In this document: piece by piece, positions 112-64,000 of the stretch
Position numbering within the stretch: position 1 is the first letter of the stretch
How the letters are laid out: each line of letters starts with the position of its first letter
Assembly (NCBI GenBank): GCA_031763025.1
Contig: JASSKH010000028.1
Coordinates: forward strand, 2,294,001 to 2,358,000
DNA: 64,000 nt
DNA from: Macrocystis pyrifera
Lineage: Eukaryota; Sar; Phaeophyceae; Laminariales; Laminariaceae
Reading direction: 5' to 3'
The notes under the pieces: model-generated
What the model was told of the DNA's origin: nothing
Databases searched by the model: none
What the model saw: only the letters and a program-made list of their open reading frames with translations
Position numbers and translations under genes: made by a program

Positions 112-2100
112 GTCGATGCTCCTGGCGGGAATCTTGATCACGAACGGCACAGTAAGCAGGAGAGAGTGGGAGATCCGTTGGTTGCAGTGCGTCTCCTATT
201 TAGATAACGAGAATGTGCAGGGGGGGGGAAAGGGAGGGAAAACGCAAAAAAAAGAGGATAAGAGGAAGGCTCCAGAGTGGAGGAGCCGTTTCAGCGATGT
301 GCCCACGCATTCCACGAAGAACACAATATCTCTTATTATGGGTGGGTGGGTGGGTGGGTGGGTGGGTGGGAGTGGGTGTGGATAGGTTGCCGTATTACGT
401 TACGCGACCTGTTCTAGTCCGCTCGTGCTGCAGCGTACCACTACGTAAAATACCGCCTGATATCTTATACCTTATAGATACCAGGCCAGAATACCGAAAC
501 CTTTCAGCCGCCGACGTCCTGCTGTAAGTCAACTGAAGTCAGACTACTGCTGCTGTACTAACCTGTTGTAAACTGAAGGCTTTTTCAGCCAATCGCCCGC
601 AAAATAGTCTGTGTTGCAACTATTAACACATTTTGCGTAGTAGCTTTGAATTATGACACAGCAGGCGCAATCTCTGCACAGCAAAATACATACATCGATC
701 TGCCTGCGCCACAAGAACATGTTTTATCATCAGCATATCAAGGTGGGGCCATGTGTGGCGTGCGGTTCTTTTGAGCATAGGCAGCGAGCAAAGGATGGGC
801 GTATGCTACAGGTGTACAACAAGTTGACAACAAGTTGACTGTTCGTTTCCAGAGATCCCCCGGAAAAATCTAGATAAAGTAAGAGCATGAAACGCATCAT
901 ACCGGTACACGTCCTAAACGGTCGATCGAGCGATTCTCAGGCTTGGGAGCACGCTTGGGCCGGTGCAGCAACGACGGCAACAAAGCAACAGGCGCACGAC
1001 AAGAACTACTACTGTATGTAGCAGTCTCTTGTACTAACTGTCTGCCACAGCAGAAAACCTCACTGCGGCAGCATGCTGCGCTGGGGCGGTGCTAAAAGCT
1101 ACCTGTGTATACGATGCCCTGGTCCACGATAGATGACAATTACACGCGGAGGAATACCCATGATAGACATCATGATGAGCTCACCTTCTTAATCCCAAAG
1201 TGCTTCTGTTTGTTGTTCTCGAGACTCGTGCTGGTCGCTGGTGGTGGGTGGCGACTGGTTGCTGCTGCTGGAGAAAGTGAGCGTCTCGGGACGGAGGTAG
1301 ATGTGCACTGCTGCTGCTGGTGGTGAAGTCGTTGTTGTGTGGTGGTGGGTGGGGTGCGGTGTGGGGTTGTGCAGTAATCGGCTTTCGGTGAGAAGCGGTA
1401 TGGTTGATCTCACATGATGGGTGCAACTGTAACAGTTGAAGTCGGCAGGAGGAGGCGGCGGGAATTAAAATTCAGATACTCAAAGCTTTTCCTCGCACGC
1501 GACCCTTCGAAATCTTCATACATGAAGCCAGTTGAATTTTTTCGAAATGTGCGAAATTGCACGCCACGAACGAAAATACAAAAATACAAGAACAAAGAAA
1601 TAAAGCGAAAGGCATACATATCATACTGATGCCTGTTGTTTGTGCTGTTCGGTTTGTGTAGTAAATTCTATACAAGAGCGCTTGTACGCAGAACGCGAAA
1701 TATAGCTAGGAACTTGATAACAGGTACCCCTGGGCAAGTAAGTGAAGTAATATTAATGGTAGGTGAGAGACTTAATTAACTGGGATATGATTATTAGTGT
1801 TGGAAAAAAAACGGGAGAAACTAAAAAAAAAAAACTACCAGGTACAACACAATGTCAACATGTTCCTCTTCTTTCAAGGTTGCAGAAGGATGCCGACACG
1901 ACTCGTGTGGTACGCACAAAAAAATACCAGGTAGATGTCAATAGATATGGCTCTTTGTTCCTGAAGAAATTCTACAGCTATTATAGCTGTTCTATCAACG
2001 AGCACCAGATTAAAATACTCAACCGCATAAATCTACTTCGTTCGTTGCTTCTCTTTCCTTCTGGTGTATTTTGGTTGCTGGCGTATGTATGTGTTGTGTC
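112..2100. other. Intergenic spacer without recognisable genes
   Basis: No frame here looks coding. It holds a (GGGT)n microsatellite at about 339-371, a low-complexity GT/GCT-rich stretch at 1230-1380, A-rich runs, and two exact copies of the palindrome TACCWGGTA (1836 and 1925). Confidence 0.6.
339..371. repeat. (GGGT)n microsatellite
   Basis: About eight GGGT units in tandem. G-rich on the plus strand, so quadruplex formation is possible. Confidence 0.9.
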
Positions 2101-2300: not shown

Positions 2301-3440
2301 ACACACTGCCCACATACTCTACTGCTAGCAGCTGTCTGTACATCTGTACACATCTGTACATTCAAACAAAACAAACAAACGCAATATATATATATTGTTA
2401 TATGTTGTGTTGTTAACAATGACTGTGCTGACCACACTGACTGACTGATGATATGTGCATATACAACAACACCATTGGCTGCTTGTGCTGCTGCATGCAG
2501 TGCCTGTAGCGTAGTTTGTGTGCGTGTGCCGGATGTGATGTGCCGATCGCACACAAACAAACAAAAAACACGCACAGCAGAGAGCAGTATACAAACGAGT
2601 GCACACAAAACACAGTGTCACACACACAATTACAAACACAGAGACAGCAAGAAGCAGTATTATTATAATAGTAAGTAGTACCTGTAGTACATATTAGTAA
2701 TATATTTATTGCTATGTACACACAGAAGTTGGTCGCAAAAAGTAGCTATACACATCATCATCAGTTGTTACTGGTAGTAGTATATAGTGCGAGTATATAG
2801 TACAAAAAAAAAACGAAACGAACAACGAACAATAGCTAGCTGTGTAATTACATAATTCTACGTAAAGCACAGAAGTACGCAGTAAGTACTTGGTATCAGT
2901 AGTACATATTAATTATTACGCATCACTATAGATTTTCTCAATCTTGGTTCCTAAAAAATCGTGATGCGGCGGCTGCTGCTGCTTGCTGCGGCGTGTGGCT
3001 GTGTGTGTTGGTGGCATGTATCAGAATAAGATCCGGTCGGGCGAATGTAAAGTAACTACCAGGTACTATAAATATACTATTATTATTTATTGCTGCTATA
3101 CGTACCTACCTACCTACTATAATAACACCTGCTACTACGTGGCGTACTGCTTGTAGAATTGCATCCACCCGATACAATGTGCTTACTTACTACGATATAA
3201 ACAAACGCGCTGACTGAAAAGTGCTACAGTAGTGACACGTGGACCTTCGGCTCGAGGCACATACAGAGTAGGTATAGGTGTGAACGGACGAATATAAATG
3301 AAAGTGGTGACGTTTGCTGCTGATGTTCTCCGACGGCGACACGCACGAGACTACTTACTAAATATAAACTGCTAGGTGTTTTACTTAATACAGCTACCAG
3401 CCAGTAGTATAAATATATCGCGCACGTTGCGCCAACCACA
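2301..3440. other. AT-rich spacer
   Basis: CA/GT-rich and AT-rich sequence without coding character. The overlapping minus-strand frames (Cys/Val/Leu-rich) are products of the CA repeats. One TACCAGGTA site lies at 3057. Confidence 0.6.
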
Positions 3441-7156: not shown

Positions 7157-7820
7157 GACATAAATAGAATGTAAAGGGCACATCTTGAGACGGAGGAGGG
7201 AGCAAGGACAACAGTGGAGTATTGCAGATAAAGCATAGCGGGAAGTATACATAAAAGGTAGCTAGACCTTGTGCATACATACGTACGTTTCCTTTGTTTC
7301 CGTGGTTGTCTTCTTTCAGGAATGTTTTGAGTGATCAACGTTGAAACTCATGCTGCACATTGTCGGATGGCAAGCACATTATATTAAAAAGTGATAATGT
7401 AGTATTAATAGCAAATAGAGTTGTACGGCACGGACGCGACATGATTCTCTGCCCGTACATACTTCTGGGACTTCACTCACTCACTCACTCACTAAGCTAG
7501 CCGTAGACGACTGATAACATTGGTGTGGTCGCTTTACGGCACCTACCTGGTACTTGGTAGTATTTATCTCGGTGTTCCAAAGGAGAAGGATGCAGAAACC
7601 CGAACCCTCTCTTTTCTTCTGGCTGCCTGCTTCCCTGGTTTGTATGACGAACTTTGCTTAGGCGCTCATCAGGTGGACAGCATCGGATCGACAATCCCCG
7701 CATTTATTTTTCCGACGCATGAGTCCGTCTTGTTATGGTTGGCTTCTTCTTCTTGCCTACTGACGTATTCACTTTTTTTTGGTATGCCTCAAACCAGCTC
7801 CGGTCATCGACGATTTTGAG
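7157..7820. other. Spacer
   Basis: No supported gene. Contains a (CTCA)n run at about 7473-7494 and a TACCTGGTA site at 7544. Confidence 0.6.
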
Positions 7821-14275: not shown

Positions 14276-14279
14276 CATA

Positions 14280-15540
14280 GATGCATAGTCGAAGACCTTA
14301 TGGAGTTCCGAGCCACCGAAGGGTCAACGGAACTTGCTCCCTTGGTGTTTGGAGTTGAGACCGCGCTGTGGCCCACTGCTGCAAAAAAGGCGGGGAAGTG
14401 GTACCGGGGGATCCTGGAAGCAGCCGAACGGTTCATGGTGAGGTGGCACGAGGCTGAGGCTGAGCTGAGTAGGCAGCGCCGCGCATCCGCCGTGGGTGGT
14501 GTCCAAGGGAAAGGGGGGGTGGGGCGGAAACAAGAGGAGTAGCAGAAAACCCGACCAAGGGAATGCGGAGAGGGGGGGGGGAGGGAGAGGAGCAGTAGAA
14601 GGGAAACTGCAGTGGACGAAAGTAGGAAGGAGATGGCAGACAGGGTAGCAAGGTACCGGGCAGACTAAGAAGTAGAACATGCCTATACTACTCGTACCAC
14701 CAACTGGTGCAGCTGGTTCGAACGTGGTCTTCCTTCGTCTTCCTTTTGTTTTTGTTTATTTTTGTTTCATTGTATTTTCTTCTTTTGCGCTGACCCTATG
14801 TGATTTTCATTTTATTTTCTTTCTCTTGCTTTCTCCGATTGATAAGCCTTAATGAAGGAGTCGTGAGGCGTGGGTGGATGACGAGCCTGCTTTGCTTGTT
14901 TCGTATTGTCTGCTTTGCTTGTTTCGTATTGTCTGACGCCGAGGGGCCGGGCATAGTTGACGAACGCTGGACGATGGTGGCAGACAGGGTAGCAAGGTAC
15001 CAGGCGGGCCAGCAGGGAGACCCTGGCTGTGCTACTCGTACCATAAACTGCTGCCGCTACCTGGAGGATGCCTTGTGCTTTGTTTGGTTTGCCTGTTATA
15101 TTCCCTTGGTTCTTAGTCTTACTCTGTTGACGACGACTAGTGGTGTTTTTCTTCTTTTTTTCCTTTTTTTTTTTTGCAATTCGTTCTTTTCAAGTGTCTG
15201 CCAGATCCCCTTCGGGGGGGGCACGATGGTTTGTTTTATATATACCAGGTATATTTTTTTTTTCTTGTTTCTTTTTCTCTTTCGAATTGTCTTCGTTGTT
15301 TTTATTTGTTTTTTTTTCTCTTTGTTTCGCTTCGTTTCTCTAGGTCATAAAATGTGTATATCGTGCCTGTCGTACGCAGTATGATGACATGGCAACACAT
15401 TGCATACGTGGCAACGTAGTATCTCTGTGGCGTAGCTTTGTAACCACAGAACTTGTATCTCTCTCGGATTGAAGAATCGGCACGGACACTGATTGTGCTG
15501 GATGTCGACGGGTAGAAAGAACGGCTTAATGTGAAGAAAA
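14280..15540 (+). other. LINE-1 copy B distal coding remnant and 3' untranslated region
   Basis: After the shared TGA the frame continues (CIVEDLMEFRATEGSTE..., to about 14540) and then becomes a long non-coding tail with T-rich blocks, equal to that of copy A at 22000-23237. Confidence 0.75.
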
Positions 15541-15566
15541 CAACAACAACAACAACAACAACAACA

Positions 15567-16838: not shown

Positions 16839-17540
16839 TATACCTGATCCGTTTGAGCCAAAATCAGGTACATCCTAAAACCAAGTAAAAAACGTGCGCC
16901 ACGAGCGGTGTGATGTCCATTGACAATCCGGTAAAAAAAGAAGGCGCCTAAAGCATTAAGCGTGCCGCATGGCCTCCAAAATCTGAATTGTTTTGTTTCC
17001 TTCAGGGTCTATCATAGGTACCACGGGCTCCACTTGGACCTGCAGAGAGTCACTATTAATATGCTTCGTTTGTTTACCCACGGCGGGAGCGCCGAGCGTA
17101 TTTACTCTGGCGCCCCCCCCCCGTTGACAGCTTTAAAGCTTCCGGACCGTCCTCGCGGAACCGCCTTCTTTATCTTGCCGTACCAAACCTGAGACTACCT
17201 CGACGCGGGGTGGTGCAGACGAAACGCCGAGTGTCCATGGTGCTGTAAAGACTGCTGTGAACATAGAAAACAACAGAGTACACACAACAACTAACTGAAG
17301 CACATCGCACACCCCAAAGGAGAAAAAGTTAAATCAGCGTACGCATGTATGCATTGTATATACCAGGTACGTACTTTTACGTACGACGTACGAGTACAGA
17401 GTTTATACGTCAATACAGAAGAATTCAACCGAGGGAGGGCAAACGCATACGGAGAGAAAACACAGCAGTGTACGTATGGCCTCTCTGATTGGTTCAAAGT
17501 TTGCCAAAATCAGTTGAAAGCTAGACAGAGTAGAAAAAAA
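16839..17540. other. Spacer with short hairpin motifs
   Basis: Contains GCCAAAATCAGGTATACCTGAT-like pieces at 16829-16875 related to the tandem hairpins at 17541, a poly(C) run at 17116, and a TACCAGGTA site at 17361. No gene seen. Confidence 0.5.
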
Positions 17541-23237: not shown

Positions 23238-23449
23238 TATATATATATATATTTTTTTTCAAGGCCAAAAAATTTCGTTGTGTGTGCCCCCCATGTTTTT
23301 TTTTGGGGAAAACATACGTACCGCTCTGCTGGACGAAAATATAAGGAACTTTATACATCAATATGAATACCAAACGTTCATTATTTTTACAGACACCCGG
23401 ATTGGTAGGAGAGAGACCGCGGTTTCACGCCTTGATTGAGTGACCAGTG
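23238..23449. other. Spacer with (AT)n
   Basis: An (AT)n run and poly(T) directly after the LINE tail, then nondescript sequence. Confidence 0.5.
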
Positions 23450-48900: not shown

Positions 48901-51900
48901 TGTTATTGCACGAGTCTTTTCGGTTGTTCGAGAAGAAGCCGTGACAAAAGAGTCATGCTTTCGGTTGCAGGCAAGGGGGACACAGAGAGGGGGGGGGGGG
49001 GGGGAGGATAAGAGAGACGAACCACACCGAAAAGAAACATGAGAAAAAAAAAGTCGCACGCTCTCTTAAGAAACAATAAAATAAAAAGGGGTGAAGAAAG
49101 AACAAGTACTTCACTGGAGGGTAGAAGGAGTAAGGAATAAACGAATGCACCATCGGAGCGCTAACGAGAGGGACATAGCGCCTCACCAGGACTGCTTGAA
49201 CTCCAGCGTGCACGAGGTTCCCTCCCACGTTTCCTTGGTCACCGTCGCCAGGGGGTGCCCCATTTGCTCCGTCCACGACCGCATCATCTGAACAAAAAAA
49301 AAAACATCCGCCCATTCGTCGTTCGTCAGCCCTCACATGCCATTTATCATCCCTCATGTGTCATTTATCATCCATCATGCATCGTTCATCAGCAGCACCA
49401 CCACTTTCACCACCACTACCATCAAAATCACGACCACCATCACCATCACCATTACCATCAACATTACTACTACGATCACGATCACCATCATCATCACAAC
49501 ATCGGTCACATGGCGGAGACGGAGACGGAGACGGAGACGGTAGCGTGAGGGAAGACAAACCCTACCTGGTGGGCAAAACAACGCCAAATCATCGCATGTT
49601 GGTTTGCCGCCTACTGTAGTCTTATTGACTTCTGAAAACTAAAAACTGTATCATCAGCTGTGAGATCGAGGACTTCGACGAAGCTCCATATTCGCAAGGT
49701 AATATAAATACTGCTGTACTTCACAAGTTAAAAAAAAAAAAACGCGAGGATCCCCCCGTAGGAGGGTCAACCGGACAAAAAACGGACACCCATCCACACT
49801 CGAATCTCCACCTTTTGGCGCATGTCCTTCCTTGCCGGATAAAGTTATCCGAATTTTCGTCCAAGTAGGAGTGTGTCCCAAAAACAGAAGTGTGCTGTGC
49901 TGCAGGTGCAAACGTAACTCTGCACACCTCGGACACATAGATCATCTACAGATAGATTATCTACAGATAGATTATCTACAGACAGATCATCTACAGATGT
50001 ATCATCTATAGATATATCATCTACAGATAGATCATCTACAGATAGATCATCTACAGATAGATAGTCTACAGGTCATGTACAGATAGATCATGTACAGATA
50101 GATCATCTGCAGATAGATGATATAGTTCCTCGCCTGCCGATATGAGAGGTTGTGCATCTGTAGTGTATAGATATAATAGTACAGATACAACCCAAGGAAA
50201 CATGCGCGACCGTAGATCATGCAGAGTATACCGCTCCCACACAGCAACATGAGCTAGATCATACAGATCATACAGATCGTACATATTGTACAGATCATAC
50301 AGATCATATAGATCATACAGATCATACAGATGATATTCCTGTCCTGAAGGATCTAGATCACCAAATAATCGGTAGATGATCTGTTAGGTGACCTGTCCGA
50401 GGTGTGAATTCAAAGGACATAACAAAATAGAGCTATAATACGTACGCACATGAAACACACCACGAGTGAAAAAAACGCAAGGACCCGAGAGCAGGCACCG
50501 ACAAAAAACGAAACTCCACCTTGGCGATGTCCTTGCCGGACACTTGCGACCAAGCGTCCCACAGGTCGTACGTCTCGGTGTTTCCGTACTTGTGTTTCTT
50601 CATGTACTCCTGCACCCGCGAGAGAAGAGAAACACAAAAGGCGCGAGAGAAGAGAAACACACAAGGCGCGAGAGAAGAGAAACACAAAAGGTGAATAACG
50701 AAAACAAAAATGCCTGGTACGCACCAGCATCATGTTACACTATGCAAACGTAACTCAAGAAAACACTGGGGACGCGAAACCATGCGAAACATAACGAAGA
50801 AAAAAATATATGCGTGTGTGTGTGTTTTTTAATTACAAATGAGATAACAACGAGGAACGATAATCCTCTTTAGAATAGAAACCGCAACCCCAATTCTTTG
50901 GGGATAACGTAATTCAAGTAAGCATGGAAAACAATTGCAAGTAGTGAAATGGCTGGGTTTCAAGGATGTGTTCGGTACGGTATTTTTTTTCTGTACTGTA
51001 CCCTCATACCCGGGCATATTCTCTGAGGGTATATACCTGGGTATTCACTGCGAGGGTAGATACCCGGGTATTTACTGTGAGGGTACACACCCGCGGGTAT
51101 TTACTCTGAGGGTACATACCCGGGTATTTACTGTGGGGGTACATACCCGGGTAATTACTCTCAACACCACTGGAGCGTATGGATTCAATATTAATACTGC
51201 GTAAAAGTAGCGGTCCCTGTACAGTGCCCGTATGATATGCGCCAGGTAACAATACCGGCACTATATAAAGCGTCAACCGGCACTAATTACTCCGCACCGC
51301 ACACTGTGTACCGCGCTGGTGAATCCCATCTAGGCCGAGCGATTCCACAGGCACTACATATAGCGGGTAACCGGCACTATAACATTCAACCGGCACTATT
51401 AACACTCAACCGGCACTATATATAGAGGGACCACTACCACTTACTACTGTATAAAAAAGTCCTTGCACTTGGGGGACAGAGGGGCATAAAGCAAGCCGCC
51501 CACATCTCGGAGGCAGAAATTCACAGACGTATCATGAAAAAATCCTTCGTAGCACGCGCGATCGAGTACCACTCTGCCCGGAAATATGATCCACATTTCG
51601 GACTCTGATGTCAGCATCAAACGTACACTATATTTCCGGCCGGAATGGTACTTGAGCTTCGACGACGTTCTCGTTGAGGTAGCTGTCTTCCATTTTATTC
51701 ACATGTTGACTTTTTCGGTATACAACAGCACGCAGTCACCGCCTCCTGTTTCAGCAATCAGAACCCAACACGGTGCGTAATCATATCGGGAGATGCATGG
51801 GTGTAAGGTCCATCGTGCATTCTTATCACTACTGTACTGTACTATACCAGGGTAAAGGTCTGCCTTACTACAGCAGTACCTTCAGACCCTTCTTGAATAT

Positions 51901-54900
51901 CTTCACAACGTCATACCGCGCTTCCTACTTCGTGAACAAAAAATCAACAACATCGTCATTCGATTCGCCGTGATTTTGTTTTTCTTACGGTTTGCCATTG
52001 CTTACTCCTCGTCGTCAATCTGTTGTGGTTGATTCACCGCGATTCCACGATCCGCGGGATTAATCCCCAAGGAAAGCCCTGGAAAAATATATCGGGAGAT
52101 GCACTGGTTTAAGGTCCGTCGTGGGTTCTTTACAATTGTACCAAGGTATAGGGTCTGCCTCACTATGAATAGCGTTGTTTACTCTGCTCACTGCATACCA
52201 ATGTTTTTTTTTTTTTTTTTTTCACTTTTACTTTCCAGCCCACTCGTAGGAGGTTTTACCCTCGACGATCTTCTGGACAAGCCGTGGTCACAGGTGTCGT
52301 CCCTTCTCTCCCCCGGTACGTGCCTTTATTTTTTATCGCGCATAGGGTTCAGCATTCCCACTGCTCGTCGATTTTCATCGAATGTACAGCTAACTCACGC
52401 TCTCGCGCTTTCCGCTAATCAATTTTATGCAAGAAAAAGTCCCTATGAGCATGCACTCGGTGAGACTCGAACTCACGAAATTAGTGAAACGCTACCCAAC
52501 GTTTTCCCACTGCGCCAGGAGGAGATCGAGAGTGGGGAACGAGGTTGTGCTGGATGTCGACGGGTAGAAAGAACGGTTTCATGTGAAAACACACACAGGC
52601 AGTACCTGCAGACCCTTCTTGAACATGTCCATTCCGAGGACGGCGTTGAGCATCTTCACAACGCACGCCCCCTTGCAGTAGCTGATGGCGTCGAACACTT
52701 GCTCCACCTCTTCCGCGTGGGCGATGGGCACCTGCGGAAAGGCAGAAAGAAGATCAGGGGCTGTGAGTCAGGCTGCCTATTCACACGAGCATTAAGTCGC
52801 CGACAGCTACTAAATACAGTAGTGCTTACTTCTGTTTCTCTTCTTTTTCCCGTTTGTCATCTTCGGCCTTCTTTTCAATTTTCCCTCCTACTAGCAGTCG
52901 TAGCCCACACACATACGAAGTATTGAAAGTTTCTACTACCGTATTACGGAGGACCATAGTAACTAGGACCGTGCCTTTTAGGAACGGAATACGATTTGCG
53001 AGTGCGGCTCTCACCGTGGTGTTTTTTTTAAAAAAATAATTTGCGCAATGTACAACAACAACGCAATCAACTCACTGGAGCGCATATCGTTGCAGGTTGG
53101 TAGGCGCAACTCGGCGCATATCGGCGAGATTCGAGTGAAACCTGGAGAAACCCGGCCCCCACCCATGGTACGCACAAAAACCTGCATATATCCCTACTGT
53201 TAGTAACAATATTTGTTCCTATTTACGATGTTTTTACTTTTTCATTTTTTCCCCCGTAATAATGTTGTTGGCTCGTAGGTGTATGTCGCCGGCGACTACG
53301 ACGGATAAAATACGTACTATTACGGAGGGCCATAGTTAATAGGACCTACGGTACACACAAAAACCTATATGTTTACCTATTTTTACTAACAATATTTGGT
53401 CCTGTTTACTATGCCCCCCCCCGTAACGACAGTTTCTACTGTACCTGGAAGTTGGCTACGTGTGAGTCGCCGACGGCTAAAAAATACGTGTTCATAGATT
53501 CTACTATTACGGACGACCATAGTTAATAGGACCTGCGGTACACACAATAACCTACATATTCGCCTATTTTTACTAACAATATTTGGTCCTATTTACTATG
53601 GTCCCCCGTAATACCGTCGTTGCCTAGTCGCCACCGACTACTCGTATAAATGTTGCACTACGTATAAATGTTGAGTTTCTAGTTGGTTACGTAGTGCTTG
53701 CTACGGTGTGTAGGGGCAGGGCGCCCGACATTTCTTACGTCGACCATACAGAAAGAAATGTGATTTTTGGTCACCAACCATTCGAATCCGCTGTTTTTGG
53801 TAAGTCATGCACTCTACCGACGTATGGGCTCTCTACCGACGAGAGGGTTTTATCCTGGTAGAACGCGAGGAGGACGGGAAAAAAAAGGGGGTCACTCTCT
53901 AGTACCTCGTGCTTGATGTGCATAGCTGCGTGCAGAGCAGAGAGAGGCACACGAGCAGACGGCACGACACCGCTCGCTGCCGATTGGTAGGTCTAGACCA
54001 GGTATACTGTTGAGCTATAAATATTGAGAGTTTCTAATTTGTTACCATGGTACGTAGTACCAGGTACGTTTTACGGAATGTAAGGGTGTCCCTCAGATCC
54101 AAATTTTCTGAGGTTCCTCAAGTGAGCTCTATACCCTAAGTACGGTATAATACGTATAGAAAGCTAAGGGCCGTGTTACTATCGGAGAGCTTTTTTCCCA
54201 TAATTTAATTTTCAAATTTTTTGGGGGGGTTTTTCGCGCAAATCTTCCAGGTTTTCCTGGTTATTTTTTCCACGAAAATAAAATATGTGAAATTTAGCTT
54301 TCCTGATATTTTGCGCTCAGTAATTTTTCTCGAATCCTGACAGAACGCCTCCGTATCGTGTTGCGGACAAATTTCCGACTTTTCCAAGTTTGGAAATTCT
54401 GGGAAAAAACTCTCCGATTCTAACGGCCCCCTATATACTCCTAAACCCTTCCCCTGTCCCCGCCCTCTCTGTCTCCCTCCATAATGACGCCCGTCTTCAG
54501 AATCCGTAAAAAAAACGCCTCCATCTCTGCCCAGACCTATATGCAAATCGTAGTCCTTGGCATCCTATTAAAACGTGTGGGGATGACGGTCTACATTAGC
54601 TTTGGCCCGTCAAGGCCTCTTTTGGCTTAAATGTACTACGTGTAGTTTCAGCTTCGGGAGTTCCATATATTGATGGCTATTCGTCAAAAGGGGGCAAGAA
54701 GAGTGCCGTTAACCATCGCATCATATTTAGATCATCGATCACACCGTACGTATTGTTGTTTGACACCACACTGTTGCTGAATACAATGACCTTTTGTATT
54801 GAATAATAATATACAAACGGTCCACATAGAACTACTTACTTAGATCTCGATCTCTGAGCGTGCTCGCTTGGTACATCCCTGGCCTCTCAGAGCTCCCACT

Positions 54901-57900
54901 TGGAAATCGCCTCCTTTTATTACTTGCCGGACCCTTCCAGCGGGTCTTCGTTTTCTCCATTTCTCGTCGTACTTTCAGTCCTTCTTTCCCTTTTTCTTCT
55001 TTCGTTTCGTGCGCGTGCGTGTACTCCGAGCACGGTTGCGCGGGCGAACCCGGCACCGTCGCGGGTGTCAGCGGATGCTGGCGTGTAGAGGGGGAGTTGC
55101 AAGGAGCGCTGTCGCCGCTTTCGTGCCTCGGCGTCGCGTGTGCCTCGAGACACGAGGGATGCATCAATAGGCTCTGTCTGGCCTCCATTTGTGATGTTTG
55201 ATAGAGTACGTACGAGTATTTAAGGGTCGTTCGGGATTGTAAGATAACATTCAAGCGGTGCTTATTTTTGCGACCGGGCTGAAAGTCACAAGATGGAGGT
55301 ACCCCGAATGAGCACCAACATTGTCGAGCTTGCGTCGAGGTCCACGGTGAGCACCGGGCTTCACGCGAGGCGGGCGACGGGGTTCACTGTGGAAGAGAGG
55401 GAGGCAAGCTTTACCCGGACTGAATCGTGGCGAGATGGTCGCGAGAGCGGCGGGCGGCGTACGAGGCTGAGAGAGAAGTTCTGGTGTTTGATTTTTTCTT
55501 TTTTTCATTTATTCATTTTTTTTTTCATGACTAATGTAAGGTGTTCCAATCAGGCAGGAAATTATTATACGAAAGGGGACGGGGATTTTTTTCTTTCCGA
55601 TATTTTCGGTTTCATTTTCATTGTATTTGCTGTGCTACTGTGTACCGTGCTGTGCTTTATCTTGCGTACATACGACGAGTACACAGACACAGAGCATATC
55701 GAAAGAAGAAAATAAGTACCCTACCTGGGGTATGTACGTATGTACGACATATGAGCGAGCGTAGCGGAAAACCGCCCGCGACGCGAAGCATATATGGCGT
55801 CCGAGCTGTTTTCTCCTGAAGCATGGCGGCGGGACTCTTGGCATTATCAAGGCGCCAGTTTGCAACAAGCAATATTCAATCATGGACCTCTGTCCGCTTC
55901 GCATAATTTTTTTATGTACTTTTCCTTCCTGAGCGAGCGTAGCGGGCGGCGTAGGCCGCCAGCGGAGCGAAGCGCCTTGTATTCCGTACCAGGTATGGGG
56001 CGTGCGACGGCGGTACGTACGTACAAGTACGCCATTTCTTTTTCAGAGGCCCCTCACTATTGCTAAGTCACCCAAAAAAACTGATTTTTAGAGGTAAATA
56101 CACGTACTACCGATGAACCAAGCACACAACGAAAATCTTCCCAACACAACAAAGAAATTCCGACGATTTTGGGTCGAGGAGCCCCGTCATTCGGAACGAA
56201 AAATTCCGACGATTTTGGGTCAAGGAGCCCCGTCGTTCGGAACGAAATTCCGACGATTTTGGGTTGAGGAGCCCCGTCATTCGGAACTAAAGTCCGACTA
56301 TTTTGGGTTTTGAGGAGCCCCGTTATTCGGAACGAAATTCCGACGATTTTTGGGTTGACGAGGGAGACCCGTCACTCAGAAAATATTTTCACCCAAAAAG
56401 TGCTACGAGCACACCTATCGTACGTGTTATTAATAGCATGCTCGTTCCCGCATCGTACAGCTCCATGCAGCAGTATTAATAGTCAAGTTGGACACATCCC
56501 TGTACAGCAGTAGTGGTGTGCCAGTACCCTTTTAGTACAGCACTGCTGCAGCCCCGTTTAGGGGACCAACCACATGGATTTTGCCTGGTTTATATCAATA
56601 TTAACCCTTTTCGCACTGCAGTCTCGTTTCGGGGACAAAAACTACTTAAGAGAATTTGACGGGTTCGTCCTCAAAACGGGACCGTGGTTCTAAAAGGGTT
56701 AACTAAGACCACCCCGTCACAAACAAGCCCAAAAACGTGGTATTGTCCATCTTTATATCTCCATAATACGGTCTTAGACCATCTACTACTGAAAAAAAAG
56801 TCCCACGCTAATTCATTTTTTTTTTCTCGTGACAAACCGGTTTACCTGGTATTATCTCTACTGCTGATGGTCTTAAAGTCATACCCCGGGAGCCCGGCCT
56901 GCTGTTTCGTGCGGCCGATGCCGAATTCGTCACATTATTTGCGACATTTTTTTTCCTCTCGAGTCTCAAAGGGGACTATTAATGGTACGGGGGGCCATAG
57001 TTAATAGGACCTACGGTACACACAAAAACCTACATATTTCGCTATTTTTACCAACAACATTCGGTCCTATTTACTGTGGTCCCCCGTAATAGTGTGTCCC
57101 GGGACTACAGCTACGTACGTCCCTTGAGCAAAGCGTAAAACGACGGCAGCGCATGATGATGATGATGGTGATGATGATGACAGCATCGGCTTTGTCAGGT
57201 GCGTCAACCCCTCGCCCGGCTCTTTTACAGTTCACAGGCAACCAATAGCCCGTGTGGTCACAGGATACATTCCAGCAACACACGAGCGCCGTCAGGCTCG
57301 GGGAACGCGAACGGCTGCAGTGGGATACTTACCCACTTCAAGAACATCCCGCTCAAGACATTTCGGGAGATAATAACACCGGGTGAATAGGCTTGTCCCG
57401 AAAACAAATCTGCTTGGCATTAGCTTGGGATAAACTGTTGCAATAGTAAAAGGTGAGACCATGAGTGGAGTGAACACCACGCACATACATGGCGTCGTCA
57501 CGGGGGGGGGGTTAGTTTATGTAGCCTTCTAGGGCAAACTGCAGTCCCGTTTTGAGGGACAAACTATTCAAATACAAAGTCATTTGTCCCCAACACGGCA
57601 CTGCAGTGCTAAGGTACCTCCACGAGATTCAGAATTATACCTAGCTTCATTTTTGAGGGCTTAGGCCCGGGTGGGACAGCAGGGTGCCGAGCGGCTAAGC
57701 AACGGCATGCATGTACCTGGATAGGGTGAGATGAGCGCAGCGAGTCCAGCCTGAGGGCCGACTGCTGGTCAGACACGACGAAACTGCTCCCACATGCCCC
57801 ACATGGGGAACAGGTCGTGGGCAGCGTAGGTTTGCATCCAGGAAGCGAAGCCCTCGTTCAGCCACAGGTCGTCCCACCTATTAGTCAACACATCGTCCCG

Positions 57901-61728: not shown

Positions 61729-64000
61729 TTTCATCATCACTTTTACTTTCCAGCCCACTCGTAGGAGGTTTTACCCTCGACGATCTTCTGGACAAGCCGT
61801 GGTCACAGGTGTCGTCCCTTCTCTCCCCCGGTACGTGCCTTTATTTTTTATCGCGCATAGGGTTCAGCATTCCCACTGCTCGTCGATTTTCATCGAATGT
61901 ACAGCTAACTCACGCTTTCGCGCTTTCCGCTAATAATCAATTTTGTGCAAGAAAAAGTCCCTATGAGCATGCACTCGGTGAGACTCGAACTCACGAAATT
62001 GATCTTGATAGGCTCGCGGACCACCTACCAAGCCAGGTTTTTGTGTATACAGTAAGTCCTGATCACTGTTGTGGTCCCTCGCAATAACACCCTGGACGGA
62101 AATATAAGGATCGTTCGTATATTGAAATTCACTCCAAAGGTTATCTATAATTCGGTTCAGAGTGGTGTCATACGGTATATTCCTGTCTCTCTTGTGTCGT
62201 TCTCCGCAGGGTGACCGATCAATTCGTAATATAGTCAAGGCACCACTTCTCTGCCTATTGTGCCTATCTTTGCCTTCCCAGGCATGCTACTACTACGGTG
62301 GTCCATAGTAAACAGGACCAAACATTGTCAGTAAAAAAGGTAAATATATAGGTTTTTATGTATACCATAGGTCCTATTAACTATGGACTCCCGTAATATC
62401 AAATATCAAATATTACCTATTAATAGTAAGATAGGGGGATTCTAGCCCTTTTTGTCCACATTATTTAGGGCCGACGGTGGGGGCCTGAAACGACAAGTTT
62501 ACCGATTATACCGAATTAAACAATGGTCTCGACTATTTAAGCTGAATTGTTTCATCTACGCCGAAAGTCGATTCTGTGCTACATACAAGTCGATTCTGTG
62601 CTATATATACGAGTAACCTAAGGCTCTTAACTTTCAACTGAGATCGCTGCAGAAGAATTTTCCATAACTTCACACTAAGAGTACTGTTGTAGTAAAAACA
62701 ATAACTAGAGTGAACTACAGTGAGTACTTTCGCAAAAGAAGGACACGACACATCGCTGGAGAGTAACTCACGCTTTCCAACATTTTTCGATAGATTTTCA
62801 CTACACAGAACAGTGTTGTAAGAAGTGGACTCTCACTCCATCGTATGCTGAAATACTGTTACAAGAAGTGGATTCTCACTTCATCGTATGCTGACATATT
62901 ATTGCAAGAAGTGGACTCTCACTCCTCACGTTAAAATCTTCCAACACAATAAAAAAAAGAAAGAAAACAAAAACTCACGGCTTCAAGAAGAGCCAGAGAC
63001 ACGCCAACGTTGTAGAAGATGCTATACTATAATCAAGCGAGGAGCCCCGGAAAAATCCTGGAAAATTCCAGGTGCACTCCTATCGTAGCATGCATCATAC
63101 ACACCAGTATATATAATAATTTATCTTCCCCATTCATTATCTTCGCCCTTCCTTTCTTTCTCCATCCTCCCTAGTCGTAACTCAGATTCGGGGTCACATA
63201 AGCAGGCTCTCCCGCCCCCTTCCCAGCGCCGATTGTGGCTTTGCATTTTTATCGCGAGGAGAACTGAGCCTTTCCCTCCCTTGTAGTATGCATCAATCAG
63301 GCCAGACAATTCTTGCCGTACGTGCAGTAGTATTATTGGTCTTTTCTTGCTTACGAGGTACCTGGTATGTATTTTGCTTCATCCTAAAATATGTTGCAGT
63401 TGTCCCTCTCCGTTATCTCACGTACGTCCGCCTCTCCCTCGGAGTAACGAAAAAAAAAAAAAAACACACACACACACACACACTATCTGTCTCTCGCTTG
63501 TCAGTCTCTTCCCCCCCCTCCCACCGCAGAGAAGCAGATAAAGACCGCTGTTTACGTCTCTCTCCCTTGTCAATATCAGCCCCATTCTTGGTCGTATAAC
63601 CCGACGTGCTCCGTCTCTGGCTTTGTAGAGATTCGAGGGTATATTAACATACGAATACGGCCATGCATAACAACCCCCCCCCCCCCCCCCCCCCCCCCCC
63701 CGCCCCCCCCCCCACATATCGGTGCGCTCTGCTTCAAAAGGGACGCGTGGTCGAGAGTCAACATAAGCAACAAATAAGTACCCGCCCCCCCCCCCCCCTC
63801 CTCTCCTTATCCCCATTCCCTCGTGTCCTCACCATGTCAAGCTTGGGCAGGGGGTACCTCTCCTGGAAGAAGTCATCGTACAAGTCAAGAGTCTTCTCGG
63901 CCACCTCAAGCGCGAAGGTCCCCAGGTGGCTCTTTCCCGGCGGCGTGTACACTCGCACCGCAACTCTCCCTCTTTGGTGGAGCCTTGCACGTAATCGAAC
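37498..64000 (-). CDS. M1 zinc aminopeptidase, puromycin-sensitive type (5'-partial, 15 exons visible)
   Basis: Cleaves N-terminal residues from peptides; family members are cytosolic or nuclear. Exons, 5' to 3': 64000-63833, 60355-60272, 58869-58775, 57877-57717, 52731-52606, 50609-50520, 49287-49187, 48777-48645, 47839-47708, 46974-46822, 46000-45846, 43172-43016, 41754-41600, 39963-39801, 37650-37498. The exonic sequence amounts to about 673 codons, matching the human enzyme from its VRVYTP segment to the end, so roughly 250 N-terminal codons lie beyond the window. Motifs: substrate-binding GAMENWG (exon 2), [16 protein letters not shown] (exon 3) and the third zinc ligand in WLNEGFA (exon 4), then the ERAP1-like C-terminal helical domain. 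All junctions agree in phase. Two apparent indels (exons 1 and 4) and two GC donors are odd; see the exon entries. Confidence 0.95.
37775..37925. repeat. Tandem repeat, about 50-bp unit, intron 14
   Basis: About three to four units of ACGCCTGCCTTCTGAGGCT-CTATAGGGGTGCACCTACT. Confidence 0.85.
37926..39800. other. Rest of intron 14
   Basis: Poly(G)/(C) runs (38488-38501, 38874-38910, 39650-39664), A-rich runs, no recognisable transposon. Minus- and plus-strand frames here are short and uncharacteristic. Confidence 0.5.
39801..39963 (-). CDS. Aminopeptidase exon 14
   Basis: [20 protein letters not shown] ... [17 protein letters not shown]; phase 2 to 0; donor GTATAA. Confidence 0.94.
40341..40612 (+). 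mobile_element. Repeat family H (copy 3)
   Basis: From GTGGCCACACC through AAGCGGTTCTTACTAGGATG, CAGCTCACCCTTCATGAGAC, TCCGTCCCGGCATTGTAGGG and ACGGCTACGGTCATGG to GAGTACACC. Confidence 0.75.
40618..40810 (+). mobile_element. LINE-2 tail (copy a) with C-rich end
   Basis: Last codons of a LINE-2 protein (GCGCCAAACTGTTGGAGGTG..., GGTCAAATGACTAAGGCAAG, CAACAAATGAGTA) followed by 14 C and a CA run. Confidence 0.7.
40947..41051 (-). repeat. MITE-A copy 7
   Basis: TA-flanked; ends TTCCGGGGG and CCCCCATAA. Confidence 0.9.
41065..41170 (-). repeat. MITE-A copy 8
   Basis: TA-flanked; complete; only 13 bp from copy 7 and very similar to it. Confidence 0.92.
41175..41500 (+). mobile_element. LINE-2 tail (copy b) with C-rich end
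   Basis: Encodes [20 protein letters not shown] and, after a break, the [16 protein letters not shown] region of a non-LTR retroelement C-terminus; ends CAACAAATGAGTAC then C-rich sequence. The stop TGA at 41259 and a frame break are visible. Confidence 0.75.
41600..41754 (-). CDS. Aminopeptidase exon 13, followed by a GC donor
   Basis: [20 protein letters not shown] ... [14 protein letters not shown]; phase 0 to 2. Donor CAACAG|GCGAGT: the frame would stop at TAG four codons on if unspliced. Using the next GT would throw the following exon out of frame. Confidence 0.92.
41905..42062. repeat. MITE-C copy 2
   Basis: GATCATCGATTCCCAC...TAATTCTGCATGATC, related to 24035-24183; contains GATCTACAGATGATCTACAG repeats like the satellite at 49.9 kb. 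Confidence 0.6.
42063..43015. other. Rest of intron 12, with a C40 homopolymer
   Basis: No transposon recognised. 42868-42907 is 40 consecutive C, ending 108 bp from exon 12. The Pro-rich open frames over it are artefacts. Confidence 0.6.
43016..43172 (-). CDS. Aminopeptidase exon 12
   Basis: [20 protein letters not shown] ... [14 protein letters not shown]; phase 2 to 0; donor GTGCTG. Confidence 0.94.
43173..43600. other. Intron 11, proximal part
   Basis: Nothing recognised apart from GACTGGC/CAGTCGA repeats (43320-43385) and a TACCTGGTA site at 43574. Confidence 0.5.
43603..43777. repeat. MITE-B copy 4, split by MITE-A copy 9
   Basis: Left half TTTAGGGCTGCAGCCAGTCC to GGGGACCAA, right half CAGTCGGGACTGCGGTCCTG then AAAGGGTT; the MITE-A element sits in the middle. 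Confidence 0.75.
43642..43750 (-). repeat. MITE-A copy 9, inside MITE-B copy 4
   Basis: TTACGGGGGGCC left end; right terminus diverged. Carries an extra CCTGGTA after a TA (43688-43696) relative to other copies. Confidence 0.85.
43832..43936 (+). repeat. MITE-A copy 10
   Basis: TTACGGGAGACC...GGATCCCCGTAA. Confidence 0.88.
44171..44217. repeat. MITE-B copy 5 (half)
   Basis: TTCCAAGTAGTTTGTCCCC-ACACAGTACCGCAG arm only. Confidence 0.6.
44345..44430 (-). repeat. MITE-A copy 11 (variant subfamily)
   Basis: TTACGGGGGGTATAGTAATC start, GGACCCATCACATAC middle, degenerate right end. Contains TACCAGGTA at 44392. Confidence 0.7.
44441..44486 (+). repeat. MITE-A copy 12 (half)
   Basis: TTACGGAGGACCATAGTAAA to TCAGTAAAAGTA; right half absent. 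Confidence 0.7.
44553..44657 (+). repeat. MITE-A copy 13
   Basis: TTGTGGGGGAACATGG...GGACTCCCGTAA, TA-flanked. Confidence 0.85.
44671..44785 (-). repeat. MITE-A copy 14 (variant subfamily)
   Basis: CTACCGGGGGGTATAGTAATC...CCATGTTCCCCGGCAA. Same subfamily as copy 11; has TGCCTGGTAC at the position where copy 11 has TACCAGGTA. Confidence 0.75.
44792..44882. repeat. MITE-B copy 6 (well preserved)
   Basis: TTAA at 44788 and 44883; both arms intact (TTTAGTACCGCAGTCCCG / CGGGACTGCGGTACTAAA). Confidence 0.92.
45048..45428 (+). mobile_element. Repeat family H (copy 2, full length)
   Basis: Begins after a C run with GGAAGAACCCTTTTACTCCG, contains the GTTACATCGTGAACCC and AAGCGGTTCTTCGCAGGATG blocks and ends CGCATGATAATGGGTACACC followed by C. 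Confidence 0.75.
45461..45566 (+). repeat. MITE-A copy 15
   Basis: Complete, TA-flanked, strong arms. Confidence 0.92.
45846..46000 (-). CDS. Aminopeptidase exon 11
   Basis: [20 protein letters not shown] ... [12 protein letters not shown]; phase 0 to 2; consensus donor GTGAGT. A poly(T) tract (minus strand) precedes the acceptor. Confidence 0.94.
46001..46821. other. Intron 10
   Basis: A (ACAG)n/A-rich stretch at 46006-46060, a GGTGTGTTATCTTATCACCC palindrome-type block at 46348-46378 related to the 60.8 kb satellite, and the donor-like repeats at 46727-46830. Confidence 0.6.
46727..46830 (-). repeat. Four copies of the exon 10 donor sequence
   Basis: On the minus strand CTCGATAAG-GTAC-ACAC (46819-46830, the used donor) recurs as CTCAATAAGGTAC (46781), CTCGATAAGGTAC (46755) and CTCGATAGGGTAC (46729), spaced about 26-38 bp. 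Confidence 0.8.
46822..46974 (-). CDS. Aminopeptidase exon 10
   Basis: 51 codons: [20 protein letters not shown] ... [14 protein letters not shown]; phase 0/0. Acceptor GAATGAAG is weak. The donor region CTCGATAAG|GTAC is repeated three more times just downstream in the intron. Confidence 0.9.
47185..47285. repeat. Minisatellite, about 18-bp CCGACCGCCACCTTCGTA unit (part 1)
   Basis: Four to five diverged units of the ACCGACCGCCACCTTCGT type in intron 9. Confidence 0.8.
47495..47705. repeat. Same minisatellite (part 2)
   Basis: About ten diverged units running right up to the exon 9 donor; the Thr/Pro/Arg-rich open frames here come from the repeat. Confidence 0.8.
47708..47839 (-). CDS. Aminopeptidase exon 9
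   Basis: 44 codons: [20 protein letters not shown] ... [11 protein letters not shown]; phase 0/0; donor GTCGGT. Confidence 0.93.
47840..48644. other. Intron 8 (GC donor)
   Basis: A-rich on the plus strand (47920-48120), G17 at 48126. No transposon recognised. Confidence 0.55.
48645..48777 (-). CDS. Aminopeptidase exon 8, followed by a GC donor
   Basis: [20 protein letters not shown] ... [13 protein letters not shown]; phase 2 to 0. The donor is AAG|GCGAGG. The next GT downstream would bring the following exon out of frame with an early stop, so a GC-AG intron is the best reading. Confidence 0.9.
48778..49186. other. Intron 7
   Basis: Contains TACCAGGTA at 48779, overlapping the exon 8 acceptor, TACCTGGTA at 48877, and a G16 run at about 48990-49006. 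Confidence 0.6.
49187..49287 (-). CDS. Aminopeptidase exon 7
   Basis: [20 protein letters not shown] then [13 protein letters not shown]; phase 0 to 2; donor GTGAGG. Confidence 0.95.
49360..49545. repeat. CAT/CAC microsatellite and GGAGAC repeat
   Basis: CATCAC/CACCAC triplets at 49385-49500, then five GGAGAC units at 49515-49540. Confidence 0.9.
49933..50110. repeat. Satellite AGATCATCTACAGAT, about 16-18-bp unit
   Basis: About ten units of ACAGATAGATCATCTAC; related words occur in MITE-C. Confidence 0.9.
50256..50334. repeat. Tandem GATCATACA units
   Basis: Seven to eight units of CAGATCATA-type sequence. Confidence 0.85.
50520..50609 (-). CDS. Aminopeptidase exon 6
   Basis: 30 codons: [20 protein letters not shown] then [10 protein letters not shown]; phase 0/0. 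A three-unit tandem repeat (50617-50692) supplies the pyrimidine-rich tract of its acceptor. Confidence 0.95.
50617..50692. repeat. Three tandem 24-bp units at the exon 6 acceptor
   Basis: GCGCGAGAGAAGAGAAACAC units; on the minus strand each is a pyrimidine tract (GTGTTTCTCTTCTCTCGCG). Confidence 0.9.
51000..51170. repeat. Tandem repeat, about 30-bp unit with TACCCGGGTA palindrome
   Basis: About six units of GAGGGTACATACCCGGGTAT followed by TTACTGT. Confidence 0.88.
51245..51430. repeat. Clustered CCGGCACTATA words
   Basis: At least five copies of AACCGGCACTAT at irregular spacing. Confidence 0.7.
51784..51910. pseudogene. Partial duplicate of the exon 5 region
   Basis: 51784-51868 resembles 52089-52165 (ATCGGGAGATGCA-GG-TAAGGTC), and 51875-51908 resembles the donor side of exon 5 (CAGTACC-TCAGACCCTTCTTGAA ... 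TCTTCACAACG) with a central part missing. A tandem duplication that has decayed. Confidence 0.65.
52204..52525 (-). mobile_element. SINE S1 copy b, with a tRNA-Met-like head
   Basis: Minus strand: head TCCTCCTGGCGCAGTGGG (box A TGGCGCAGTGG) ... TAGCGTTTCACTAATTTCG-TGAGTTCGAGTCTCAC (box B), then the S1 body, ending in poly(A) (plus-strand T19 at 52204-52222). The head differs from that of copies a and c up to the shared AATTTCGTGAG. Confidence 0.85.
52543..52598 (+). mobile_element. LINE-1 tail fragment (copy F)
   Basis: GGTTGTGCTGGATGTCGACG, GGTAGAAAGAACGGTTTCAT and GTGAAAACACACACAG. Ends about seven bases before the exon 5 donor. Confidence 0.8.
52606..52731 (-). CDS. Aminopeptidase exon 5
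   Basis: 42 codons: [20 protein letters not shown], then [20 protein letters not shown] and LQ; phase 0/0. Seven bases past its donor (GTACTG) a LINE-1 tail fragment begins. Confidence 0.95.
52944..52972. repeat. MITE-A copy 16 (end only)
   Basis: TTACGGAGGACCATAGTAAC then TAGGACC. Confidence 0.65.
53164..53259 (-). repeat. MITE-A copy 17 (left end missing)
   Basis: CATGGTACGCACAAAAACC to CCCCCGTAA, with a T-rich insertion before the right end. Confidence 0.7.
53320..53426 (-). repeat. MITE-A copy 18
   Basis: TTACGGAGGGCCATAGTTAA ... CCCCCCGTAA. Confidence 0.9.
53507..53611 (-). repeat. MITE-A copy 19
   Basis: Complete; TA-flanked; right end GGTCCCCCGTAA. Confidence 0.92.
53620..56100. 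other. Middle of intron 4
   Basis: No conserved gene. A 140-codon frame at 55293-55715 (plus) has two hydrophobic stretches but no family resemblance. GAGCGAGCGTAGCGG...GCGAAGCG words occur at 55752 and 55931. TACCAGGTA at 54058 and 55987. Confidence 0.5.
56135..56390. repeat. Tandem repeat, about 43-bp unit
   Basis: Five units of AATTCCGACGATTTTGGGT followed by GAGGAGCCCCGTCATTCGGAACG. Confidence 0.9.
56527..56570. repeat. MITE-B copy 7 (half)
   Basis: CCCTTTTAGTACAGCACTGC ... GGGGACCAA. Confidence 0.65.
56605..56698. repeat. MITE-B copy 8
   Basis: TTAA at 56601 and 56699; CCCTTTTCGCACTGCAGTCTCG ... CTAAAAGGG. Confidence 0.9.
56985..57089 (-). repeat. MITE-A copy 20
   Basis: GTACGGGGGGCC left end, right end GGTCCCCCGTAA plus TA. 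Confidence 0.88.
57525..57613. repeat. MITE-B copy 9 (diverged ends)
   Basis: CTGCAGTCCCGTTTTGAGGGACAAA and TTTGTCCCCAACACGGCACTGCAG arms. Confidence 0.8.
57717..57877 (-). CDS. Aminopeptidase exon 4 (third zinc ligand), with an apparent 1-base insertion
   Basis: [20 protein letters not shown] carries the zinc-ligand Glu. After MWEQ the sequence is CAGTTTCGTCGTG where CAGTTCGTCGTG would keep the frame ([20 protein letters not shown]). One T too many in a TTT run (plus-strand AAA at 57781-57783) sends the frame to a stop three codons later. Without it the exon is 160 nt and all phases agree. Confidence 0.92.
57878..58774. other. Intron 3
   Basis: Poly(A) runs at 57906 and 58108; no transposon recognised. 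Confidence 0.5.
58775..58869 (-). CDS. Aminopeptidase exon 3 (HEXXH zinc motif)
   Basis: [20 protein letters not shown] then [12 protein letters not shown]. The HELAH pair of zinc ligands and the catalytic Glu are intact. Phase 0 to 2; donor GTGAGC. Confidence 0.95.
58948..59290 (-). mobile_element. LINE-2 tail (copy c)
   Basis: Minus strand frame [40 protein letters not shown], ... [10 protein letters not shown]-terminal end of a non-LTR retroelement protein with a stop, then GAGTACG and a C-rich tail. Confidence 0.78.
59308..59428 (-). mobile_element. Repeat family H, 3' end (copy 4) with C27 tail
   Basis: On the minus strand: GTCGGTGAAAACCCGACGTG ... ACGGCCATGCATGATATTGAGTA followed by 27 C (plus-strand G27 at 59308-59334). 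Confidence 0.75.
59435..59522 (-). mobile_element. LINE-2 tail (copy d) with C18 tail
   Basis: GGTGCTCCGTCTCGAAAGGG ... AAGCAACAAATTAGTACG then about 18 C on the minus strand. Confidence 0.75.
59700..60215. repeat. Minisatellite, about 33-bp unit, intron 2
   Basis: About fifteen units of AGCAGCGACAGGCCAATCAG-TACCTCAACTTGA, ending some 55 bp before the exon 2 donor. Confidence 0.92.
60272..60355 (-). CDS. Aminopeptidase exon 2 (GAMEN motif)
   Basis: 28 codons: [20 protein letters not shown] then [13 protein letters not shown] binds the substrate N-terminus. Acceptor AACAG, donor GTGTGG, phase 0/0. Confidence 0.95.
60439..60468. repeat. G30 homopolymer
   Basis: Thirty consecutive G about 85 bp upstream (in gene sense) of exon 2. 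Confidence 0.9.
60765..61350. repeat. Satellite with palindromic core, about 32-bp unit
   Basis: About eighteen units of AACACCCCCCCGTATCACAC-GTGTGATAAGAT. Cores vary: CACACGTGTG, CACACTAGTGTG, CACACCAGGGTG, CACACTACGGTG. Confidence 0.92.
61488..61583. repeat. MITE-B copy 10
   Basis: TTAA at 61484; CCCTTTTAGGACGG ... AACGGGACTGCAGTCTTAAAG. Confidence 0.8.
61644..62084 (+). repeat. MITE-A copy 21, split by SINE S1 copy c
   Basis: Left half AAAGGGGGAATACAGTAACC ... AGTAGAAATACTGG; right half TTTTTGTGTATACAGTAAGTCC to CCTCGCAA; TA on both outer sides. Confidence 0.78.
61721..62036 (-). mobile_element. SINE S1 copy c, inside MITE-A copy 21
   Basis: Minus strand: CTGGCTTGGTAGGTGGTCC (box A) ... 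GTGAGTTCGAGTCTCAC (box B), S1 body, then poly(A) and an (AT)n run. Body nearly identical to copies a and b. Confidence 0.87.
62293..62396 (+). repeat. MITE-A copy 22
   Basis: CTACGGTGGTCCATAGTAAA ... GGACTCCCGTAA, TA-flanked. Confidence 0.9.
62397..63590. other. Distal part of intron 1
   Basis: Three diverged tandem units of GAAGTGGACTCTCACTCCATCG at 62818-62925, TACCTGGTA at 63359, (CA)n at 63463. No gene supported. Confidence 0.5.
63594..63701 (+). mobile_element. Repeat family H, 3' end (copy 6) with C28 tail
   Basis: TATAACCCGACGTGCTCCGT ... GAATACGGCCATGCATAACAA followed by 28 C. Confidence 0.7.
63724..63800 (+). mobile_element. LINE-2 tail (copy e) with C-rich end
   Basis: GCTTCAAAAGGGACGCGTGG, GTCAACATAAGCAACAAATA, AGTACCCG then a C run that ends 33 bp from the exon 1 donor. 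Confidence 0.6.
63833..64000 (-). CDS. Aminopeptidase exon 1 of the window, with an apparent 2-base insertion
   Basis: From the window edge [11 protein letters not shown] reads in one frame and [20 protein letters not shown] in another. The human enzyme has FDFVETRSKDGVCVRVYTPVGK without a gap, so both halves are real. The sequence has GAGAG where GAG is expected (plus-strand CTCT at 63964-63967). Ends LPKLDM, donor GTGAGG, phase 0. Sequencing error, allelic damage and true loss cannot be told apart here. Confidence 0.9.

Follow-up and report, generated by a model that had tools for sequence, protein, structure and literature searches.

Why does one nine-base palindrome, TACCWGGTA, recur throughout a stretch of the Macrocystis pyrifera genome, and what put it there? 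The window, that is, the whole stretch of DNA analysed here (64,000 nucleotides, C209:2294001-2358000), had been credited by the initial annotation with 24 copies against a chance level of about 0.5. Both figures hold: each of the 24 named positions carries an exact TACCWGGTA, the window contains no further copies, and chance predicts 0.40 copies on average in dinucleotide-preserving shuffles or 0.46 under an order-1 Markov model. The largest count in 100 such shuffles was 2, and none reached 24. Compared with other 9-bp W-centred palindromes, TACCWGGTA is the most enriched in the window; the runner-up, TAGGWCCTA (10 copies), was ruled out as a second footprint, being an invariant part of a near-palindromic repeat that we call MITE-A. 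The copies, all exact matches to the word and all candidate footprints, are as follows.

1836..1844, candidate footprint TACCAGGTA
1925..1933, candidate footprint TACCAGGTA
3057..3065, candidate footprint TACCAGGTA
7544..7552, candidate footprint TACCTGGTA
15243..15251, candidate footprint TACCAGGTA in a LINE tail; relatives without the word at window ~8887 and L007:5409
17361..17369, candidate footprint TACCAGGTA
22929..22937, candidate footprint TACCAGGTA in a LINE tail; position homologous to 15243 (descent)
25880..25888, candidate footprint TACCTGGTA
26134..26142, candidate footprint TACCTGGTA
26880..26888, candidate footprint TACCTGGTA
31927..31935, candidate footprint TACCTGGTA
34477..34485, candidate footprint TACCTGGTA
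35454..35462, candidate footprint TACCTGGTA
43574..43582, candidate footprint TACCTGGTA
43688..43696, candidate footprint TACCTGGTA within a MITE-A copy; at this TA, L094, L097 and L098 carry MITE-B (see below), whereas other MITE-A copies have no insert
43955..43963, candidate footprint TACCTGGTA
44392..44400, candidate footprint TACCAGGTA within a MITE-A copy
45671..45679, candidate footprint TACCTGGTA
48779..48787, candidate footprint TACCAGGTA
48877..48885, candidate footprint TACCTGGTA
54058..54066, candidate footprint TACCAGGTA
55987..55995, candidate footprint TACCAGGTA
56843..56851, candidate footprint TACCTGGTA
63359..63367, candidate footprint TACCTGGTA

The word is far from expectation genome-wide as well. 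Counted over 537,376,219 bases in 223 contigs (PMC10498591 describes the published M. pyrifera assembly as 537 Mb in 223 contigs, with 50.4% GC), TACCWGGTA occurs 121,279 times as opposed to 2,421 times for the reversed word, whole-genome counts being lower bounds for repeats. The string TATACCWGGTATA was found 7,131 times, against 5 for its reversed control, and part of these matches are LINE tails. For closer inspection we used a 324-kb sample of contig C209, made up of the window, the next 60 kb and a further 20 blocks, each of 10 kb. This sample holds 87 words and 17,451 TA dinucleotides, or one word per ~200 TAs, and extrapolation to the genome gives about one scar per 240 TAs; the sampled loci come mostly from the single scaffold C209. 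A 331-kb set additionally includes L021-L026 (7,450 bases with 12 words, picked for holding the word). Some 21-36 kb past the window end, the extension of C209 also contains exact inverted matches ~11-15 kb apart (extension coordinates 84950-86650 and 97852-99555), which suggests a large inverted duplication.

Near matches, reported earlier as common, are indeed enriched, but only mildly, with one-substitution variants summing to 82 against 49 expected in 264 kb. Of the S-centred form TACCSGGTA, 264 kb contain 4 copies where 2.5 are expected, and the 331-kb set contains 9 where 3.2 are expected, an excess that could be explained by decay of W copies. TACCGGTA stands about threefold over expectation (12 against 3.9 in 264 kb; 15 against 5.0 in 331 kb) and is perhaps a minor product.

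What the word represents is best seen inside MITE-A. Two words of the window lie in copies of this repeat:

43636..43752, + strand, MITE-A copy with the word at 43688 (alignment)
44339..44425, + strand, MITE-A copy with the word at 44392 (alignment)

As proposed from the first inspection, both are 7-base inserts relative to other MITE-A copies, and the unit is TA-CCWGG-TA: at a TA that sister copies have once, the insert reads CCWGG plus a second TA. Nine of 115 MITE-A alignment rows carry 7-base inserts; eight of these inserts spell the word's seven letters and come from six different copies (MITE-A being near-palindromic and rows being counted on both strands, each copy may be counted up to twice). 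Words inside MITE-A make up 8 of the 87 in the 324-kb sample, roughly in proportion to the repeat's share of TA dinucleotides (1,358 of 17,451). Five different MITE-A TAs bear the insert, and two of these show both states of W.

The initial annotation had predicted a TA-targeting element with ends CCW...WGG, and such an element exists. When TA-CC ends preceded by dissimilar sequence were clustered, one family emerged, MITE-B, the remainder being words, low-complexity sequence and internal pieces of repeats. MITE-B is a 79-bp near-palindrome whose consensus starts with CCACTCTGTCCGGAAATATAAGGACCGTTT and finishes with the inverse; its terminal inverted repeats (TIRs) and flanks read TA-CCACTCTG...CAGAGTGG-TA. 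One copy folds on itself far better than its shuffles do (z -4.9). The window holds the following copies:

23321..23405, MITE-B copy delimited at 85 bp and flanked by TA at either end
39379..39448, diverged MITE-B copy with TA-CCACTCTG at its left end
46496..46568, diverged MITE-B copy with TA-CCACTCTC at its left end
51569..51648, MITE-B copy of 80 bp flanked by TA at either end, CCACTCTGCC...GCCGGAATGG
54766..54823, MITE-B fragment, diverged
55210..55276, MITE-B fragment, diverged
62088..62165, diverged MITE-B copy adjoining a partial MITE-A

The exact end TACCACTCTG occurs 6,354 times genome-wide, against 772 for the reversed control. Among 40 loci picked by this exact end (L033-L072), so that end conservation and the left TA are due to selection, 19 hold an element of 74-83 bp with a far end that agrees with CAGAGTGGTA at no fewer than 7 of 10 positions; the six listed inverted pairs of TACCACTCTG reduce to two loci, five of them being copies of one. 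Near-consensus ends (at most 3 mismatches to a 32-base terminal pattern) number 3,106, with none in the reversed control, and among the matches listed (100 of the 3,106) several subfamilies are repeated identically on many scaffolds. We fetched 20 such loci (L079-L098; 19 distinct, L086 and L091 being duplicates), chosen by a near-consensus end and hence again selected for that end and its left TA: 15 have TA on both sides, and in the other five the far side reads CA, TC or TG. A profile search recovered 17 copies in the 331-kb set, from which a genome total of ~27,000 is extrapolated. These sampled copies are mostly old, at a mean of 30% from a single-family consensus, and of the 34 ends examined in the random sample 13 adjoin a TA. 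Young copies occur as well: in one subfamily, six copies show 0-2 differences from the subfamily consensus over 79 positions, and in another, ten copies show 1-8 over the same length. In L037 (word on the right, from 181) and L093, MITE-B directly adjoins TACCWGGTA, as if inserted beside an earlier scar.

Other candidate sources were set aside. Inverted-pair scans and continuation lists gave no recognisable family with CCWGG ends. A MITE-like tandem (17531-17862) has TATACCTGG in its arms, but was rejected because the inverted repeat extends outside that point. The ends CCAGTAGCCCAACGG (6 ends) share their upstream sequence in three of four inspected cases, the fourth being unlike, and so belong to a longer repeat. 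A search of the genome for the transposase domain PF13358 gave no match, and neither did one for PF01359, in which the control was likewise silent.

The connection between element and word is drawn most closely at one TA of MITE-A, in the context AAAACC-TA-TATATTTACC (TATATT side), where we read all three states, empty, filled by MITE-B and marked by CCWGG, in paralogous copies rather than alleles. This TA is occupied by a 79-bp MITE-B in L097 and L098, where both flanking TAs are intact, and by a MITE-B with one flanking TA mutated in L094; in all three, MITE-A is matched on both sides of the insertion. The footprint state is found at window 43688 (CCTGG) and at C209 extension coordinate 102882 (CCAGG), and the empty state as a single TA in the window copies at 40940 and 53307, the copy at 3435 reading TG. 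Filled and empty pairs, which would speak against excision if they lacked a TA duplication, thus show one. The Tc1/mariner trait of excision that leaves TA, a short end remnant and TA is accordingly seen here between paralogous repeat copies.

Elsewhere the series is less complete. At a second MITE-A TA, CCA-TA-GTAAA, the footprint is present in L009:4280 and the site is empty at window 17991, 24201 and 44443; the MITE-B of L089 at this site has MITE-A on the left only, so there is no clean triple. A MITE-B at extension coordinate 123111 was rejected as a clean filled case, since it lies inside MITE-A but with extra bases. At a third MITE-A site, GGACC-TA-YGG, no MITE-B-like continuation follows TACC among 100 of 561 matches listed, and a junction search there for a filled copy returned four weak matches, none convincing. 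Joined flanks of the sampled MITE-B copies likewise produced no convincing empty site, with two weak spanning matches.

Target choice points in the same direction. Y at +1 and T at +3 are common to the word's flanks and those of MITE-B, with log-odds correlated at r 0.71, whereas MITE-A flanks, with G at +1, show no correlation with word flanks (r -0.01); these correlations include L021-L026. Scored under the footprint-flank matrix, a test that excludes those loci, MITE-B flanks average 0.61 versus -1.07 for random TAs (AUC 0.75; none of 20,000 resamples reaches this value), and MITE-A flanks do not differ from random TAs (AUC 0.50). With only the nine MITE-B flanks from unselected, random-sample copies, the same scoring gives p 0.02. 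TA-targeting elements of this kind generally prefer TATAT-like sites, and the flank match therefore backs the identification of MITE-B but does not prove it.

Taken together, we consider it highly probable that TACCWGGTA is the excision footprint of MITE-B, a small non-autonomous cut-and-paste element that inserts at TA with TA duplication. The proposed route starts with a Tc1/mariner-type transposase, which would cut 3 bases inside each MITE-B end, so that each flank would retain TA and a 3′ overhang CCA. End joining would then pair only the last A of both overhangs, creating an A:A mismatch; a polymerase would fill in GG on both strands before the break is sealed, and mismatch resolution or replication would yield TACCAGGTA or TACCTGGTA. 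The excised MITE-B would reinsert elsewhere, so that scars can come to exceed the elements still in place; they outnumber near-consensus MITE-B ends about forty-fold (121,279 against 3,106). A staggered cut 2-3 bases inside the ends is what the footprint spectrum suggests. Of the Sleeping Beauty-like logic first proposed, the mismatch origin of the central A/T is retained, and the 5-base self-complementary overhang now appears less likely than a one-base A:A overlap of 3-base overhangs; similarly, the TA-targeting element with CCW...WGG ends stands, with its ends corrected from CCWGG to CCA. The product that CCA ends would leave without overlap, TACCATGGTA, occurs 2,743 times genome-wide against 911 for its reversed control, and TACCTAGGTA 162 times against 246, a comparison that favours CCA over CCWGG ends, confounded as it is by possible CTAG avoidance and by repeats.

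A second word may follow a related rule. TATTAATA occurs 71 times against 1.8 expected in the 324-kb sample, L021-L026 excluded (in the window at 7403, 16325, 34843, 56428 and others), within C..G flanks like those of MITE-A target sites. Its flanks, with L021-L026 included, correlate with MITE-A (r 0.78) and not with MITE-B (r -0.37), the reverse of TACCWGGTA, and it is probably MITE-A's own excision footprint (TIR TTACGGGG). With a MITE-A end of TTA, the overhangs would overlap by two complementary bases, giving TTAA. TATTWAATA is present 7 times against 1.4 expected in the 331-kb set, and one 6-base insert lies within a MITE-A copy at L013:4537. A further repeat, with TIR CCCTTTTAGTACCGCAGTCCCG preceded by TTAA (window 23606-23700, 44789-44880 and 61506-61579; all 15 of its ends have a T ahead of the TA), resembles a piggyBac-type MITE.

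To what extent could the word have been copied rather than made anew? Descent within repeat families (LINE tails, MITE-A, local duplications) accounts for a share of the 121,279 words, which are not all independent. The initial annotation was right that LINE tails occur with the word (15243 and 22929) and without it (~8887 and L007:5409), but the words at 15243, 22929 and L018:7295 occupy one homologous position and probably go back to a single event, so the tails do not count as independent cases. (LINE-like frames encoding an Exo_endo_phos endonuclease and an RVT_1 reverse transcriptase lie at 18406-19824 and 20569-21990, with a related stretch at 12334-15551.) On the small contig C1, word pairs ~400 bases apart (21279/21684, 37259/37671 and 61537/61937) sit in dispersed near-identical units; these are local duplications, and small-contig counts are inflated by such units. 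At the MITE-A site GGACC-TA-YGG, 96 words match at no more than one mismatch (54 exactly, 42 with one), and among the 54 exact matches W is linked to the next variable base (A-T 31, A-C 6, T-T 7, T-C 10; hand count), which argues that a few events, probably accounting for many of the 96, were multiplied along with MITE-A. Even there, the 42 one-mismatch rows hold 7 mutations at 8 word positions against 35 at 13 flank positions (hand count), about a third as often, indicating an insert younger than the repeat around it; we estimate the word at this site to be ~1.6% mutated per position. That descent, rather than many excisions, produced most of the words is nevertheless very improbable. It explains the LINE tails and part of the MITE-A copies and not the bulk of the sample, in which, of 3,741 word pairs (324 kb, L021-L026 excluded), 57 have any flank similarity and 23 were flagged as sharing a position, many merely because both words lie in MITE-A; on our reading ~9 are truly homologous, which corresponds to an effective number of at least ~400 independent events in a sample that is blind to low-copy families. 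Within MITE-A, five different TAs were hit, two of them showing W as both A and T, and this also weighs against descent.

A different source is somewhat easier to entertain, albeit still unlikely: an element that itself ends in CCWGG and leaves 5-base self-complementary overhangs, mismatched W:W at the centre, with MITE-B as a mere relative. It would yield the identical word, its target preference could be common to related elements, and some recurrent TACCWGG continuations are untraceable upstream. However, just three inverted TA-CCWGG pairs occur in 264 kb, each using at least one footprint word; among 91 non-TA continuations, the recurrent ones inspected share their upstream sequence and are pieces of longer repeats; such a source does not predict the enrichment of TACCATGGTA; and it is MITE-B itself that occupies a footprint site. 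Least plausible is the idea that selection maintains the word as a functional site, be it regulatory or bound by a protein. Perfect palindromy and a narrow core would suit this idea, but not an exact 7-base insertion at TA that sister copies lack, a density in MITE-A that tracks TA content, or one-off variants consistent with neutral decay at an estimated ~5% per site.

Excision of MITE-B thus remains our preferred explanation, and the element resembles known systems in several respects. With Tc1/mariner elements it shares TIRs and a TA target that is duplicated: TA flanks both ends at 15 of the 20 near-consensus loci, which had been selected for TA on one side, and sister copies have a single TA. 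Like Stowaway elements it is short, palindromic and TA-flanked. The full Stowaway TIR is CTCCCTCC, unlike the CCACTCTG of MITE-B. For the grass elements, mobilised by Tc1/mariner transposases, PMC1925063 shows the letters CTCC, one footprint starting TACTCC, and describes their loss as leaving TA, 1-4 end bases and TA; these end fragments of 1-4 bp contrast with the one dominant, symmetric CCWGG of MITE-B. According to PMC2874221, Tc1/mariner excision is repaired by end joining that leaves a footprint between duplicated TAs, and that of Sleeping Beauty is TAG(T/A)CTA. The TA target, the end joining and the central A/T ambiguity are common to TACCWGGTA, yet Sleeping Beauty leaves 3 bases between the TAs (written TACWGTA in the initial annotation) and the kelp word 5, whereas Tc1/mariner footprints are put at 2-4 bp in PMC7913693. 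A 3-base pattern of the Sleeping Beauty type, CTACWGTAG, is also present (20 against 2.0 expected in 331 kb; window 3224, 27504, 28090, 37847, 38665, 45016 and 49611); no source family for it emerged from the clustering of ends.

Among brown algae, Ectocarpus has abundant, mostly non-autonomous Mariner-Tc1 elements (11,912 copies), such as the 217-bp TcMar-N1_Ec32 (PMC12477816), compared with 79 bp for MITE-B. The word 'footprint' is absent from the main text of that paper, and our literature search returned no account joining brown algae, transposons and excision footprints. Of the listed papers that contain one of the exact words, the titles point to other subjects. The published descriptions of footprints, as far as the sources cited here extend, concern individual loci or donor plasmids. 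A dominant symmetric 5-bp footprint is unusual, yet of a known kind; the family is new, and striking mainly for its abundance.

A wider interpretation, which we offer tentatively, is that giant kelp may mend nearly all breaks left by this transposon in one way, by letting 3-base overhangs overlap at a single mismatched base, in the manner of Pol X-like end joining. Loss of ends and homologous repair would be so rare that ~1 in 200 TAs of the sample bears the identical scar; the scars would then be a genome-wide, datable record of excision. The findings also point to 7-base CCWGGTA and 6-base TTAATA inserts as a systematic source of mutation in kelp, one that matters for variant calling and population genetics. 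A uniform footprint of ~121,000 copies tied to its element allows insertion preference, excision history, age and a brown-algal end-joining rule to be studied by sequence alone. If the excision of MITE-B is indeed its origin, these scars are a readable fossil record of past jumps in the kelp genome.
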